A stretch of DNA of 64,000 bases from Tolypothrix bouteillei VB521301 (GTDB lineage Bacteria > Cyanobacteriota > Cyanobacteriia > Cyanobacteriales > Nostocaceae): positions 1,954,717 through 2,018,716 of the forward strand of contig NZ_JHEG04000001.1 of assembly GCF_000760695.4 (NCBI RefSeq), given 5' to 3'. Under the pieces are notes generated by a model. The model was not told the DNA's origin. It saw only the letters and a program-made list of their open reading frames with translations, and did no database searches. Numbering within the stretch: position 1 is the first letter of the stretch; the number at the start of each line of letters is the position of its first letter. Below, piece after piece: positions 18,390 to 22,737 of this stretch. A program made the position numbers and the translations under genes.

Positions 18390-19025
18390 TCACTGCGAGA
18401 CACTTGAAAATGCATAGTCTGCTTGGTGCTGCGCCCTGTGTTTGTAGATGTTATTTAAACAGCAGAAAGAAGTTGGTTATGCTTTTAGCTCTCTCAAGAG
18501 TCGTTTTCCCCTCTGCACCCACCAGTAAAGGCAAACTCACTTCTTCCATACGCTAGCTATTTTAATAACGAATTATACAATTGATGTGTATCTTAACAAT
18601 AGTACATATAATAATATAAAATTTTATATGACTGGTAAAGCCAGTCTTTGTCGGGAAAGGCAGAGGGCACCTTTGCTTGAGACATTTATGGAATACTGCC
18701 TCCAGCAAGTTTCTGTAATTTCCCTAGCATACCCACTCCCGCCACAGGCAACTAGAGCGCCAGTTCAGTAAAAGTACTTGACCTAAAACGCTAGCTATGC
18801 AATTTGTTAGAATTGGGGATTTTAGTATTCGGTTTTTATGCGATTTCTAAAAATCTGACCCAAATATTTTACGGAAAATCGGTATTTTACCCTAGCCTAC
18901 ATAATTAGTTTTTGTCAACAAATATTAGTGGATCGGTGCTCTAGCGAACAAGGGAGGACAAACGTGGTGAGGCTCGGGACCCTAGCAATAGGGATATTAA
19001 AGCAGTAATGTCTTAAGAATCCCCT
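18390..19025. other. Intergenic region upstream of the secretion genes
   Basis: 636 bp. I looked for a small secreted-peptide precursor (double-glycine or Nif11-like leader) on both strands and found none. A 61-codon open frame at 18586-18771 has no supporting features. A small stem CCCTA-GCAA-TAGGG at about 18980-18993 lies just beyond the 3' end of the minus-strand gene at 19026 and could act in termination. The promoter of the parvulin gene must lie here. Confidence 0.4.
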
Positions 19026-19556
19026 TTAGGAGTCGATTTCAGAAGCAAGATTGAGATTTGAGAAACTCCAATTGAGAAGTTTCTCCAAAATTCGGCTTTG
19101 GCGTTTGGCATTTTGCTCGATCGCCTCAAAAGCCTCAACGGTAGTACTTTGACTAAATTGACTTTGATGCCAAAGCTGAGTCAGACTCAAGGTGCGATTG
19201 AGGTAAAATTTAAATTCTTTAACCTGAAGATATTGATCGCGTTCAAATTGTTGATTAACAGCAGCTACAATCATTGGCTTGCAATTAACTCCTTCAAGTT
19301 TGTCAGCAGTGAGACGCCATGACAAAAGTTGTTCTATGAGGAGACTCTGACATTTAAGGTTTTGCTCAATTTCTTCAACAGCTTGAACGGTTGCACTGTA
19401 ATCCAATCGCCCTTGACGCCAAAGATGAGCCCAAGCCAGGATGCTATTCAGTGAGAGCTTCAGTTCAACTGACAGGGATGATGCAAATCTTTTAAATTCT
19501 CGGTTAATCCGAGCACTATCGATGTACGTCTCAGGAGAGATTACTTTATCACTCAT
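19026..19556 (-). CDS. Tandem histidine-kinase DHp-like protein lacking phospho-acceptor histidines
   Basis: 176 aa made of two similar halves (about 25-85 and 108-170). Each matches the HisKA dimerisation helices of cyanobacterial sensor kinases: LNSILAWAHLWRQGRL / EEIEQNLKCQSLLIEQLL and LNRTLSLTQLWHQSQF / EAIEQNAKRQSRILEKLL. Where kinases have S-H-E-L-R, the first repeat reads S-V30-E-L-K and the second V-K113-E-F-K, so both phospho-acceptor histidines are missing. No HATPase domain follows. It could be a decoy that dimerises with a kinase or occupies a response-regulator surface. The start at 19556 is ATG, with a shared 23-bp element about 45 bp upstream. Divergent from the NACHT gene. Function unknown. 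Confidence 0.7.
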   Translation of the reverse strand: MSDKVISPETYIDSARINREFKRFASSLSVELKLSLNSILAWAHLWRQGRLDYSATVQAVEEIEQNLKCQSLLIEQLLSWRLTADKLEGVNCKPMIVAAVNQQFERDQYLQVKEFKFYLNRTLSLTQLWHQSQFSQSTTVEAFEAIEQNAKRQSRILEKLLNWSFSNLNLASEIDS

Positions 19557-19867
19557 AATTAAGACTTTTTGTTTAATAATTTTTTTCTAAAAATAATTCG
19601 CGGTAAATAACGGTAAAGATCGGAAACTGCTACTACTTTACAAGCTATTTGCGCTTCCAACCCTATACCTAAAAGTAGATTTAATCTTTCTTAGTACTGT
19701 TTTCTATCTTTGGATGTATTGATAGAATATTACGAGAAAGAGTAATGTTGCTCTTTCCGTGTCAAGTGAAAGATTTGGGAGGTGAGGTTTTTCTATCCTT
19801 GGTGTAGCCGATTTAAGCATGACAGTTTTAGTGCTTAAAGATTTTAGAAAGCGTAGCGAGACCAAAC
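19557..19867. other. Divergent regulatory region, DHp-mimic gene / NACHT gene
   Basis: 311 bp. It contains the left 23-bp element (19601-19623) near the DHp-mimic start. No gene is supported. The NACHT gene has a 5' leader of up to about 250 bp here. Confidence 0.45.
19601..19623 (-). promoter_or_regulatory. 23-bp direct-repeat element, left copy
   Basis: On the minus strand this reads CCGATCTTTACCGTTATTTA followed by CCG: two TTTACCG units with 10-bp spacing, one helical turn. It lies 45-67 bp upstream of the DHp-mimic start and faces that gene. A second copy with 21 of 23 identical bases is at 22479-22501, facing away from the NACHT gene. The placement and periodicity suggest an activator or repressor site at about the -35 region. 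Confidence 0.5.
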
Positions 19868-22381
19868 ATGGCAGCAATATCAGTTCATCAGAAAATTTTT
19901 GAAAAATTAAAACAAGCATATATAGAGAAATTTGGTGCTTCACCTAAATTTCTGATTGGGGAGCTAAATCGGGTTTATCAAGAAAAAAAAGAAGATTCCA
20001 AAGATATTATTTCAGATAAAACGATACGGAATTTCTTTAAGGATGATGAACCAACGAAGATGCAGGAGAAAAATCTCAACTTTTTATGTGGAATTTTACT
20101 AGGATATAACAGTTATCAGGAAGCTTTAAGACAACAAACATCATTGGAACAAGGAGAAAAAGTCGAGACGGATGAGCAAGAAACTTGGCTTCAGCGTTAT
20201 CAAGAATATCTTCAGAGAAAGTGCAGTACTATAAAAGTCCTGACAATGACTCACCCCGTAGAGCTAAATAGTGTTTACGCCCAAGTCAATGTTTTAGAAA
20301 ATGTTCAAGGAAAACAGTCTAAAACTATTCAAGAACTCTTCAGCCACTTTTCAAACGAAGGTGCAAGCTTTAGTCGATTTAACTATAGAATTAGAAATCA
20401 TTTATCTGCTTTAGACGCTGTTAAAAACTATTCTAAGCTGCTTATTTGGGGTAGACCAGGTGCAGGTAAAACAACTTTTCTCAAGCATCTAGTTTTACAT
20501 TCTATTCAACAAAATAAAGAATTACAAAAAATTCCTATTTTTATTTCATTAAAATCTTTTTCTGATGACGAAAATCAACAAGATCTTATTGATGCTATTA
20601 AACAAGATTTGTCAGACTATATTTGCGAAATATCTCAATTTGTTCACAACTTACTAGAACAAGGTCGTTGCTTGATTTTGTTAGATGGATTGGATGAGGT
20701 CGGCGAAACAAAAAGCGATCGCGTTTATCAAAACATCGATCGTTTTGTCAAGAGATTTCCTAAAAATCGTTTTGTCCTTACTTGTCGTTCGGGATCTGCT
20801 GATTATATATTTCCTGATTTTACAGAAGTGGAAATGGCAGATTTCGATTGCAATCAGGTTGAGTTTTTTATTAGAAAATGGTTTGCACCAAGTGAAGATT
20901 TGAAGTTAGCAGATAGCTTACTTGAAAAAATAGAAAAAAATAGATCGCTAGAAGAATTAACAGCAAATCCATTATTGCTGACAATGTTATGCTTGGTATT
21001 TGACGATCGCTACGAACTTCCAAGAAATCAGTACTCACTGATTCACGATGCAGTAGAAATCCTTTTACGCAAATGGGATGCAAGCAGACGGATAGAAAGG
21101 AGTGTAACAAATAAGTTCAATCTACCGTACCAACAAAAAGTTAATTTAATGAGCAAAATAGCTTATGAATCTTTCTTGCAAGAACCCCATAAAATTTTAT
21201 GGCAACAAAGGGAATTAGAAGAAATTATTGGAAATTACATTGAGAATCTTCCTGATTTTTCTAATGATATTTCAACTGTTGATAGTTTGGCAATTTTAAA
21301 AAGAATAGAAGCCAATCACGGATTGCTTGTTAAACAGGCGCAAGATATATATTCATTTTCTCACTTAAGTTTTCAAGAATATTTTGTAGCTAATTATATT
21401 GTAGAGAGTCGAAGCTATGAACTTTTAAAAGAAGTTGTTAAACAGCACTTAGTAAATCGTCAGTGGCGAGAGGTCTTTCTCATAATTGCAGGACGGCTAG
21501 CTAATGCTGATGATTTTTTTAAAATTCTATTTATTCAAATTAATAAATTAGTGAGTAATAAACGATTGCAAGAGATGTTGGCTTGGCTGGATGATGTCAC
21601 AACTTATCATGGTGTCAAATCTAGCTCTTGGAGAGCTTTCTATTTATTCGTGGATCAGGAATTTGAGCTTTATACGAATGAACTCTCAAAAGTCGATTCT
21701 GCTTTAGCACAAAAACTTGCTACTCTTTTAAAAGAGTTCAATCGAGAAAGAAAGAAGATTATCGATCGCTCACCCCTTTCTGATTTTGCATTATATTTGG
21801 TGGACACTTATACCAAAGTATCTGCTAAAGCGGATAATAAACCGTTTAAACCTCATAAAGTCAATCCTTTGCTGAGAAAGGAACTTCCCGTAAGCGACGA
21901 TACGGTCATGGCTCCTCAATTGGGAGGCGAAGGTGTAACAATTGATAAAAATCGGGGTGTAATTACTCTTATCAAACAAACGAGACAAATTACGCTGGAA
22001 AAAGATAATTTTCCCAATCAGATTATTTCTAATATTACCAGTGATAGAGCTTTAAATTACGAAGGTTTAGCTGACGAACTCATATTCTTACAGGAGAGCT
22101 TTCCTGATGACAATGCACCTCAATCTGATTGGCAAGATTGGATCAAACATTTAAGAGGAGTCATGAGGCTGTATTTGAATATTGGTTATGATGACGTAAA
22201 ATTTTCCCCCGAACAAATTAAAATTTTAAAAGATTATTTGTACTCAAATATTCTCCTTCTAGAATGTATAAAAGGAAGTAATTACTCTTCTAAAGAGTTA
22301 CGCAATCAAATTCTCGATTATATGTTGCTACCTAGCAAGCGCATTCCTGAAACTCTTATTAGAGAACAAGGGTTAAGGTAA
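19868..22381 (+). CDS. NACHT-domain NTPase (bacterial NLR-like, possible anti-phage)
   Basis: 837 aa. A small helical N-terminal domain (1-90; SDKTIRNFF, LNFLCGILLG) precedes the NACHT module at about 150-370: Walker A GRPGAGKTTFL (195-205), Walker B LILLDGLDEV (269-278), sensor FVLTCRSG, and NPLLLTMLCLVF. A winged-helix-like segment with FSHLSFQEYFVA follows near 505. The C-terminal part (about 690-837) is helical and ends with the GYDDVKFSPEQIKIL region seen in other cyanobacterial NACHT proteins. There are no WD40, LRR or TPR sensor repeats and no obvious nuclease, TIR or protease effector. Some bacterial NACHT proteins protect against phage; that role here is inference. A DHp-mimic gene is divergent and a small ORF follows. 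Confidence 0.85.
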   Translation: MAAISVHQKIFEKLKQAYIEKFGASPKFLIGELNRVYQEKKEDSKDIISDKTIRNFFKDDEPTKMQEKNLNFLCGILLGYNSYQEALRQQTSLEQGEKVETDEQETWLQRYQEYLQRKCSTIKVLTMTHPVELNSVYAQVNVLENVQGKQSKTIQELFSHFSNEGASFSRFNYRIRNHLSALDAVKNYSKLLIWGRPGAGKTTFLKHLVLHSIQQNKELQKIPIFISLKSFSDDENQQDLIDAIKQDLSDYICEISQFVHNLLEQGRCLILLDGLDEVGETKSDRVYQNIDRFVKRFPKNRFVLTCRSGSADYIFPDFTEVEMADFDCNQVEFFIRKWFAPSEDLKLADSLLEKIEKNRSLEELTANPLLLTMLCLVFDDRYELPRNQYSLIHDAVEILLRKWDASRRIERSVTNKFNLPYQQKVNLMSKIAYESFLQEPHKILWQQRELEEIIGNYIENLPDFSNDISTVDSLAILKRIEANHGLLVKQAQDIYSFSHLSFQEYFVANYIVESRSYELLKEVVKQHLVNRQWREVFLIIAGRLANADDFFKILFIQINKLVSNKRLQEMLAWLDDVTTYHGVKSSSWRAFYLFVDQEFELYTNELSKVDSALAQKLATLLKEFNRERKKIIDRSPLSDFALYLVDTYTKVSAKADNKPFKPHKVNPLLRKELPVSDDTVMAPQLGGEGVTIDKNRGVITLIKQTRQITLEKDNFPNQIISNITSDRALNYEGLADELIFLQESFPDDNAPQSDWQDWIKHLRGVMRLYLNIGYDDVKFSPEQIKILKDYLYSNILLLECIKGSNYSSKELRNQILDYMLLPSKRIPETLIREQGLR

Positions 22382-22428: not shown

Positions 22429-22478
22429 ATACAAGGTTTTGCCTTCTGGCTTTTACCCCCTGTCGGTTCTTTTATATC

Positions 22479-22501
22479 CCGAACTTTACCGTTTTTTACC
22501 G
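22479..22501 (+). promoter_or_regulatory. 23-bp direct-repeat element, right copy
   Basis: Two TTTACCG units with a 10-bp period, matching the left element at 19601-19623 in inverted orientation with two mismatches. The second unit (TTTACC, 22495-22500) is placed as a -35 element relative to TATAAT at 22519. It faces the small ORF at 22564. Confidence 0.5.
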
Positions 22502-22524
22502 TAAAATGCCACAAGTGGTATAAT
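22495..22524 (+). promoter_or_regulatory. Predicted sigma-70-type promoter for the small ORF
   Basis: -10 TATAAT (22519-22524), an exact consensus hexamer, with an 18-bp spacer from a -35-like TTTACC (22495-22500) that sits inside the direct-repeat element. Transcription would start near 22531, about 33 nt before the ATG of the small ORF. No strong Shine-Dalgarno is seen between. Confidence 0.45.
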
Positions 22525-22563: not shown

Positions 22564-22737
22564 ATGGGCAAACAACAAGTAAAAAAGTGCGATCGCAAAC
22601 CAGGTGAGAAATGGACCGATGGTTGTTGTAGCTCAAATTCGGCAGAAGATTTTGAGACAGAAAAATTTGAAGACTCAATAACACATCCCGCGATCGAGTC
22701 TTCTTTCTTACCTGAATCAGAAACACACAAACATTAA
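22564..22737 (+). CDS. Small hypothetical protein (57 aa) downstream of NACHT gene
   Basis: 57 codons from ATG to TAA. The N-terminus is basic with a CC pair (MGKQQVKKCDRKPGEK, then DGCC); the C-terminal half is acidic and serine-rich (ETEKFEDS, SSFLPESETHKH). There is no signal peptide or membrane helix, and I do not recognise a family. Support comes from a predicted promoter with a perfect TATAAT just upstream and from the shared 23-bp element. It contains two GCGATCG-type sites, and its codon use is unremarkable. It could be an accessory of the NACHT locus or a spurious frame; convergent with the cytochrome gene. Confidence 0.35.
   Translation: MGKQQVKKCDRKPGEKWTDGCCSSNSAEDFETEKFEDSITHPAIESSFLPESETHKH

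Follow-up and report, generated by a model that had tools for sequence, protein, structure and literature searches.

A tandem DHp protein without phospho-acceptor histidines, encoded with an immune-type NACHT gene in Nostocaceae

Among the small proteins of two-component pathways, Spo0B keeps the phospho-acceptor histidine, and Sda is a kinase inhibitor that targets the DHp and is not itself derived from one. A histidine-less DHp that acts by binding, without kinase activity, is described for DivL in the excerpted text of PMC4211667. On the side of bacterial immunity, the excerpts of PMC12169576 describe bNACHT25 as sensing phage indirectly via a host protein, and those of PMC7159879 and PMC8195603 describe STAND-based conflict systems of multicellular bacteria with effector-associated adaptor domains. 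Receiver domains that occur without histidine kinases are also described in conflict systems (excerpts of PMC8195603), which makes a DHp-like partner for such receivers conceivable. The term HisKA has 0 occurrences in the texts of PMC7159879 and PMC8195603, and no DHp-derived adaptor is named in their excerpts. Judged by titles and abstract openings in the open-licence PMC literature, neither a DHp-only tandem protein nor such a NACHT partner was found among the entries listed, which is not proof of being unpublished.

The gene studied here, which we call dDHp, lies in a 64,000-nucleotide stretch of DNA from Tolypothrix bouteillei VB521301 (the window). An earlier note on the window had read it as two successive kinase dimerisation domains without the phospho-acceptor histidine, encoded beside a NACHT NTPase, and had suggested a decoy or inhibitor of a two-component pathway. 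By sequence comparison across genomes, we found that dDHp is a real conserved gene, which occurs together with a NACHT gene of immune type and a common DNA control element. It is a signalling domain without its chemistry, doubled in one chain and now the companion of an NLR-like gene.

Sequence, predicted fold and spread of dDHp

The tandem histidine-less DHp protein is encoded by an open reading frame of 176 aa on the minus strand at 19026..19556. As cut for the repeat alignment, repeat 1 covers residues 17-84 (19305..19508, minus strand) and repeat 2 residues 100-167 (19056..19259, minus strand), and the alignment places Val30 (codon 19467-19469, minus strand) and Lys113 (codon 19218-19220, minus strand) at the phospho-acceptor sites of repeats 1 and 2, respectively. 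The window protein matched Pfam HisKA (PF00512) with E 9.9e-6 and 26.0 bits, just below the gathering score of 26.9, and 8 of the 12 family members matched at E<=0.01, the best with 1.7e-11. When the repeats were aligned by hhalign with 35 kinase DHps, 99.2% (E 6.6e-20) and 99.1% (E 8.5e-19) were obtained for repeats 1 and 2, compared with 0.1-0.6% for five column-shuffled and one reversed control. By these sequence comparisons both repeats of the one chain are homologous to the kinase DHp hairpin, and the internal DHp repeat, with Val30 and Lys113 in place of the histidines, is as the earlier note had described it. No HATPase or other ATPase domain was found in the chain by Pfam, in agreement with the same note. 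AlphaFold2 modelled dDHp as four helices in two hairpins (pLDDT 87.5, pTM 0.80), and a four-helix bundle within a single chain, such as the note had expected, is thereby predicted, which may pack like a DHp dimer; the note's alternative of a structure unlike DHp did not come out of the model, and among the matches listed in the PDB comparison of the model there were generic bundles only. Just 3′ of the dDHp stop codon, a stretch of approximately 65 bp (18959-19024) shows 82-88% identity to sites that carry an IS605 OrfB / TnpB annotation on two cyanobacterial plasmids and is probably the end of a transposon remnant.

Loss of the histidine, which had been noted for the window protein, extends to the whole aligned family: none of its 24 repeats has histidine at the phospho-acceptor site, whereas all 36 kinase DHps compared (29 from the own genome and 7 from relatives) keep it, with an ATPase N-box pattern downstream of the DHp in 33 of the 36 fetched stretches. 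The site is occupied by Ile, Val, Lys, Gly or Asn in repeat 1 and by Val, Ile, Lys, Arg or Ser in repeat 2, and by Asp and Gly in the dDHp of one genome, G107, which stands outside the 24 aligned repeats. The Pro at +5 is likewise lost in 24/24 repeats, and Glu at +1 is retained in 22/24 despite the loss of the histidine. In addition, residues particular to the family were found. Trp occupies position +51 in all 24 repeats, where kinases mostly have Val (24/35) or Ile (6/35), and His44 (19425-19427), 14 residues beyond the lost acceptor site of repeat 1, is invariant in 12/12 first repeats, where kinases mostly have Lys (25/35). These invariants of its own indicate that dDHp is a functional type of protein in its own right, and an alternative function of His44 is possible. 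Kinase-conserved residues in the half of dDHp expected to dock response regulators were kept slightly more often than those elsewhere, a difference that was not significant in six overlapping Fisher tests (p 0.07-0.35).

A search with the window dDHp as query recovered relatives from 9 of the 192 family genomes covered, and a profile of 12 sequences, with which the best 18 first-look candidates per genome were scored, raised this to 13 of 192 (own genome included in both counts), all with open frames. The note had considered that homologues might carry an intact kinase in the same frame, or be missing from other genomes altogether; the relatives are instead stand-alone open frames of 176-208 codons from stop to stop, carried by 12 genomes besides the own one. 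The carriers named, representing 10 loci, are Nostocales HT-58-2, Nostoc sp. T09, 106C and MG11, Scytonema sp. NIES-4073, S. hyalinum, Tolypothrix campylonemoides, Komarekiella atlantica, K. delphini-convector and Mojavia pulchra. The eleven other aligned proteins are 42-77% identical to the window dDHp. In G107 (L077, 8082-8555, plus strand) a very diverged dDHp (branch 1.3) without a Pfam match is still placed head-to-head with NACHT. Within the own genome, 29 further matches to the profile reached E<=1e-6; the open frames that contain them are 539 to 1842 aa long. At the order level, 2 of 388 genomes were found by the profile, both of the same family, and likewise 2/388 with the window dDHp as query; at the phylum level, 2/386 were found, where the only match besides the own genome was an open frame of 944 aa. 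In these order and phylum searches the best 8 candidates per genome were scored and genomes were drawn evenly from larger groups, so that absence is not proven by them. None of 303 viral stretches that matched a pattern encoded a dDHp relative by tblastn, and no dDHp-related gene was found on plasmids, where matches comprised just 63-66 bp of transposon-type sequence.

All 24 dDHp repeats fell into one clade, separated from 35 kinase DHps with support 100/100, in a tree of 69 columns whose inner forks are mostly weak. Within this clade, first and second repeats are interleaved by lineage, and the two repeats of one protein are 38-72% identical to each other, with 62-72% in some lineages and 38-44% in others. 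This pattern suggests either a single duplication with later homogenisation or repeated duplication, and concerted evolution of the repeats is possible. The dN/dS ratios were 0.12-0.47 for dDHp (nine pairs) and 0.12-0.19 for NACHT (seven pairs), which indicates at the codon level that dDHp is under purifying selection and is mostly faster-evolving than its NACHT neighbour.

The NACHT gene, the small peptide gene and the repeat array

Divergently from dDHp, a gene at 19868..22381 (plus strand) encodes a NACHT STAND NTPase of 837 aa, with Pfam matches to NACHT (residues 191-340, E 8.8e-18) and NCH2 (residues 738-822, E 1.4e-15); its N-terminal ~180 aa gave no Pfam match above cut-off. Matches to this protein at E<=1e-120 were found in 34/192 family genomes, 17 of which hold sequences 58-100% identical over nearly full length. 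In a tree, support 100 divides these 17, hereafter the NACHT clade, from the 7 sister sequences that were included. All 13 genomes with dDHp fall within the 17/192 that carry this clade, and the NACHT neighbour recognised in the earlier note is thus conserved, head-to-head with dDHp in 10/13 (G000, G018, G050, G058, G088, G104, G130, G118, G052 and G107). In the remaining three, the two genes lie on different contigs: G056 and G148 are draft assemblies, and in G005 the sequence of the NACHT contig diverges from that of relatives at the dDHp start, just beyond the repeat array described below. The pair occurs in at least two outer contexts, either by rsmD- and hisH-like genes or by an alcohol-dehydrogenase-like gene, names that were read from translations and not from a family search. 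Upstream of NACHT in G056 and G148 (L075 and L076), where no dDHp adjoins NACHT, a near-identical 88-aa gene (MxKQDAPLTGEALIKEVCRR...) was observed on the same strand as NACHT.

Four of the 17 clade genomes (G044, G037, G142 and G011) have no dDHp, and no credible remnant was found upstream of their NACHT genes, the best tblastn match (E 0.027) being in a sister locus. When dDHp presence was mapped on the NACHT tree, in which several forks are unresolved, three changes were required, possibly a single gain followed by two losses. The two main-clade groupings seen for dDHp also appear in the NACHT tree.

Against models of characterised defence proteins, the window NACHT gave no match at cut-off (EruA, 47.7 bits against 1000). 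Its best PADLOC match was the candidate PDC-S60, the top matches to named models being either under their threshold or partial; PADLOC gave none for dDHp or for the small peptide described below. A helix-turn-helix that might bind the array was suspected at the NACHT N-terminus, but no credible match emerged: the model was poor (pLDDT 60.4, pTM 0.38), the best Foldseek match had E 2.2 (two ClgR repressor chains at E 6.6 and 7.0 carry no weight), Pfam gave no consistent family across 24 members, and the best E in a PDB profile search was 0.053.

Sister NACHT genes were found in 17 genomes, from which 7 loci were fetched. In 5 of the 7, a WD40 protein bearing a TIR domain at its C-terminus is encoded divergently, head-to-head with the sister NACHT (L083 1544-4546, L084 1958-4981, L085 1713-4751, L086 6902-9919 and L088 2143-5220; identified by Pfam for L085 and by phmmer for the others). 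This indicates that the divergent slot, which dDHp fills here, holds partner genes of conflict-type domains. In L083 and L084 a separate TIR protein also adjoins the WD40-TIR gene.

Downstream of NACHT, a small and unannotated-looking gene at 22564..22737 (plus strand) encodes a Cys-rich peptide of 57 aa with the motif C-x-R-K-P-G-x2-W-x-D-G-C-C and no Pfam match. Searching by the family pattern (Cys / His-or-Arg / Trp / Gly-Cys-Cys), relatives were found after NACHT in 16/17 clade loci, all except G011, and similar peptides in 5 of the 7 sister loci fetched.

A second feature shared by the locus is an array of three CGGWA repeats with a 10-bp period, located at 19601..19625 (plus strand) between dDHp and NACHT, 44 bp upstream of the dDHp start codon. 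A second copy with 1 mismatch lies at 22477..22501 (minus strand), 62 bp upstream of the peptide gene, and both window arrays have the same orientation relative to their gene. Allowing up to 2 mismatches, the window holds three matches, one before dDHp and two overlapping before the peptide gene, compared with 0.20 expected, and 0/100 shuffles reached three. In the own genome of 9.95 Mb there is a single perfect array, the one before dDHp (reversed-pattern control 0). With one mismatch allowed there are three, two of them at the dDHp-NACHT locus, and the reversed control also gave three, so that at one mismatch clustering alone is informative; the third, at 6381671, coincides in part with a 191-codon ORF. 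A perfect array was found in 7 of 60 family genomes: 6 of these arrays belong to loci of this kind, including that of G044 with NACHT and without dDHp, and 1 lies inside an unrelated repetitive ORF. Perfect arrays are therefore nearly confined to this kind of locus and offer a handle for finding the regulator and further members.

The repeats stand directly before dDHp in an alignment of ten intergenic regions, with altered spacing in G107. Among the clade loci, arrays with up to 2 mismatches were found within 1 kb upstream of NACHT in 15/17 and within 700 bp downstream in 17/17, compared with 0 or 1 of 17 in ten shuffled sets and 2/17 inside the NACHT ORF. In G056 and G148, which have no array upstream of NACHT, it lies directly before the dDHp on the other contig as well as after NACHT, and in G037 the peptide gene and the downstream array have both switched orientation. 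This placement indicates that the array goes with the starts of dDHp and of the peptide gene. It is also present in 3 of the 7 sister loci, which have no dDHp, so its regulator may predate the pairing with dDHp. A promoter-like site matching the consensus, TTTACC-18-TATAAT with TG before the second hexamer, overlaps the array at the peptide gene (22495..22524, plus strand); 19 such sites were counted in the 4-kb region and 12.3 +/- 4.0 in shuffles. The array is probably an operator that co-expresses dDHp and the small peptide gene around NACHT. Its regulator may be an activator or repressor of the OmpR type, our guess from the 10-bp direct-repeat layout.

Possible roles of dDHp

Because neither repeat has a canonical acceptor, dDHp probably acts by binding rather than by phosphate relay. 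Its candidate ligands are the NACHT protein, receivers, the ATPase domains of kinases, and some foreign factor directed at DHps. Because of its tie to NACHT, the NACHT protein is the first candidate, and the imitation of a kinase makes two-component proteins or their attackers the second. That dDHp was found only with this NACHT clade, together with the shared array and the WD40-TIR genes of the sister loci, likewise puts the NACHT system first. We therefore lean tentatively, at somewhat less than an even chance, towards dDHp being a partner, either bait or adaptor, of the divergently encoded NACHT protein. By such a scheme dDHp would be a single-chain imitation of the histidine-kinase DHp dimer with the canonical phospho-acceptor gone from both halves, its bundle would be bound by a DHp-surface binder (a protein of a phage, or a receiver or kinase domain that has become deregulated), and NACHT would respond by NTP-driven assembly. 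Against the partner role, NACHT can manage alone, as the 4/17 clade genomes without dDHp demonstrate, and co-regulation and linkage do not prove a dDHp-NACHT complex. The array is present in sister loci also, and the NACHT N-terminus gave no credible match to any domain family.

The main rival is the two-component decoy, in which dDHp binds receivers or hybrid-kinase ATPase domains and lowers signalling while NACHT is merely co-regulated. It fits the descent of the repeats from the class of DHp found in the own genome's numerous hybrid kinases (the 29 further profile matches), the retained Glu at +1, and DivL, a His-less pseudo-kinase described in the excerpts of PMC4211667 as binding phosphorylated DivK; however, the retention preference for the expected docking half was not significant, no dDHp was found outside the NACHT clade among the 192 family genomes, and gene maps inspected by eye showed no constant neighbour that could be recognised as encoding a kinase or response regulator. 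We consider this rival rather doubtful. Of the interpretation in the earlier note, then, the DHp duplication, the loss of histidines, the predicted bundle and the NACHT neighbour stand, and the inhibition of a two-component pathway does not gain from the docking-half comparison. An antidote-like inhibitor, which would keep NACHT silent until loss of dDHp frees it, could account for the head-to-head order in 10/13, the array before dDHp and the groupings common to the dDHp and NACHT trees, but sits poorly with the 4/17 clade genomes that hold NACHT with neither dDHp nor a detectable remnant, and with the two draft assemblies in which the genes lie on different contigs; we regard it as quite improbable. 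Decay of a sensor kinase into functionless debris could be read from the patchy distribution, the very diverged copy of G107 and the G005 contig, where the sequence beside the array ceases to resemble that of relatives where dDHp would begin, dDHp itself being on another contig. The low dN/dS in nine pairs, the family invariants, the distribution, with open frames in all 13 genomes, and an array before dDHp even away from NACHT argue strongly against it, and debris was rejected as a most improbable explanation.

The partner reading can be carried further to a guard-and-decoy pair, in which an NLR-like NACHT is joined by a separately encoded, phosphorylation-dead dDHp, a kinase-dimer imitation in one chain, that baits factors of phages or rivals aimed at two-component signalling, the two forming one regulon with the CC-peptide gene under a dedicated direct-repeat operator of 10-bp period. 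We put this forward as an unlikely, speculative extension.

Comparison with described systems

The closest relatives by sequence are the DHps of cyanobacterial hybrid sensor kinases (HisKA, PF00512), which are homologous to the dDHp repeats and share the helical hairpin and the conserved core pattern; dDHp differs from them in having no phospho-acceptor His, no Pro at +5 and no ATPase, and two copies per chain. DivL also has its histidine replaced, but the DHp is the sole Pfam match of dDHp, whereas DivL, as described in the excerpted text, keeps PAS and ATPase domains, dimerises between chains and is no partner of a NACHT protein (PMC4211667). Like Spo0B and Sda, dDHp is a small two-component-pathway type of protein without kinase output of its own. 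The parallel with Spo0B drawn in the earlier note is weak, since the phospho-acceptor histidine of the Spo0B bundle has no counterpart in dDHp.

Compared with bNACHT defence proteins, the window NACHT shares the central NACHT NTPase (PMC12169576, in excerpt), and it is set apart by the absence of a characterised-model match at cut-off and by the additional dDHp partner. The dDHp locus also resembles the STAND conflict systems, partly cyanobacterial, in its NTPase switch, putative small helical adaptor and TIR domains, as far as the excerpts of PMC7159879 and PMC8195603 describe them. Plant NLR pairs with an integrated decoy (PMC4246468, in excerpt) likewise combine an immune NTPase with the imitation of a signalling protein, and the genes of the present pair are in head-to-head order; dDHp differs in being a separate protein that is not fused to the NLR, and its bait role is putative. 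DivL, bNACHT25 and the plant NLR pairs thus serve as precedents by analogy only. Should dDHp prove to be a bait, the guard-decoy logic known from plant NLR pairs would also have arisen in NACHT systems of bacteria, and two-component signalling would stand out as worth guarding.
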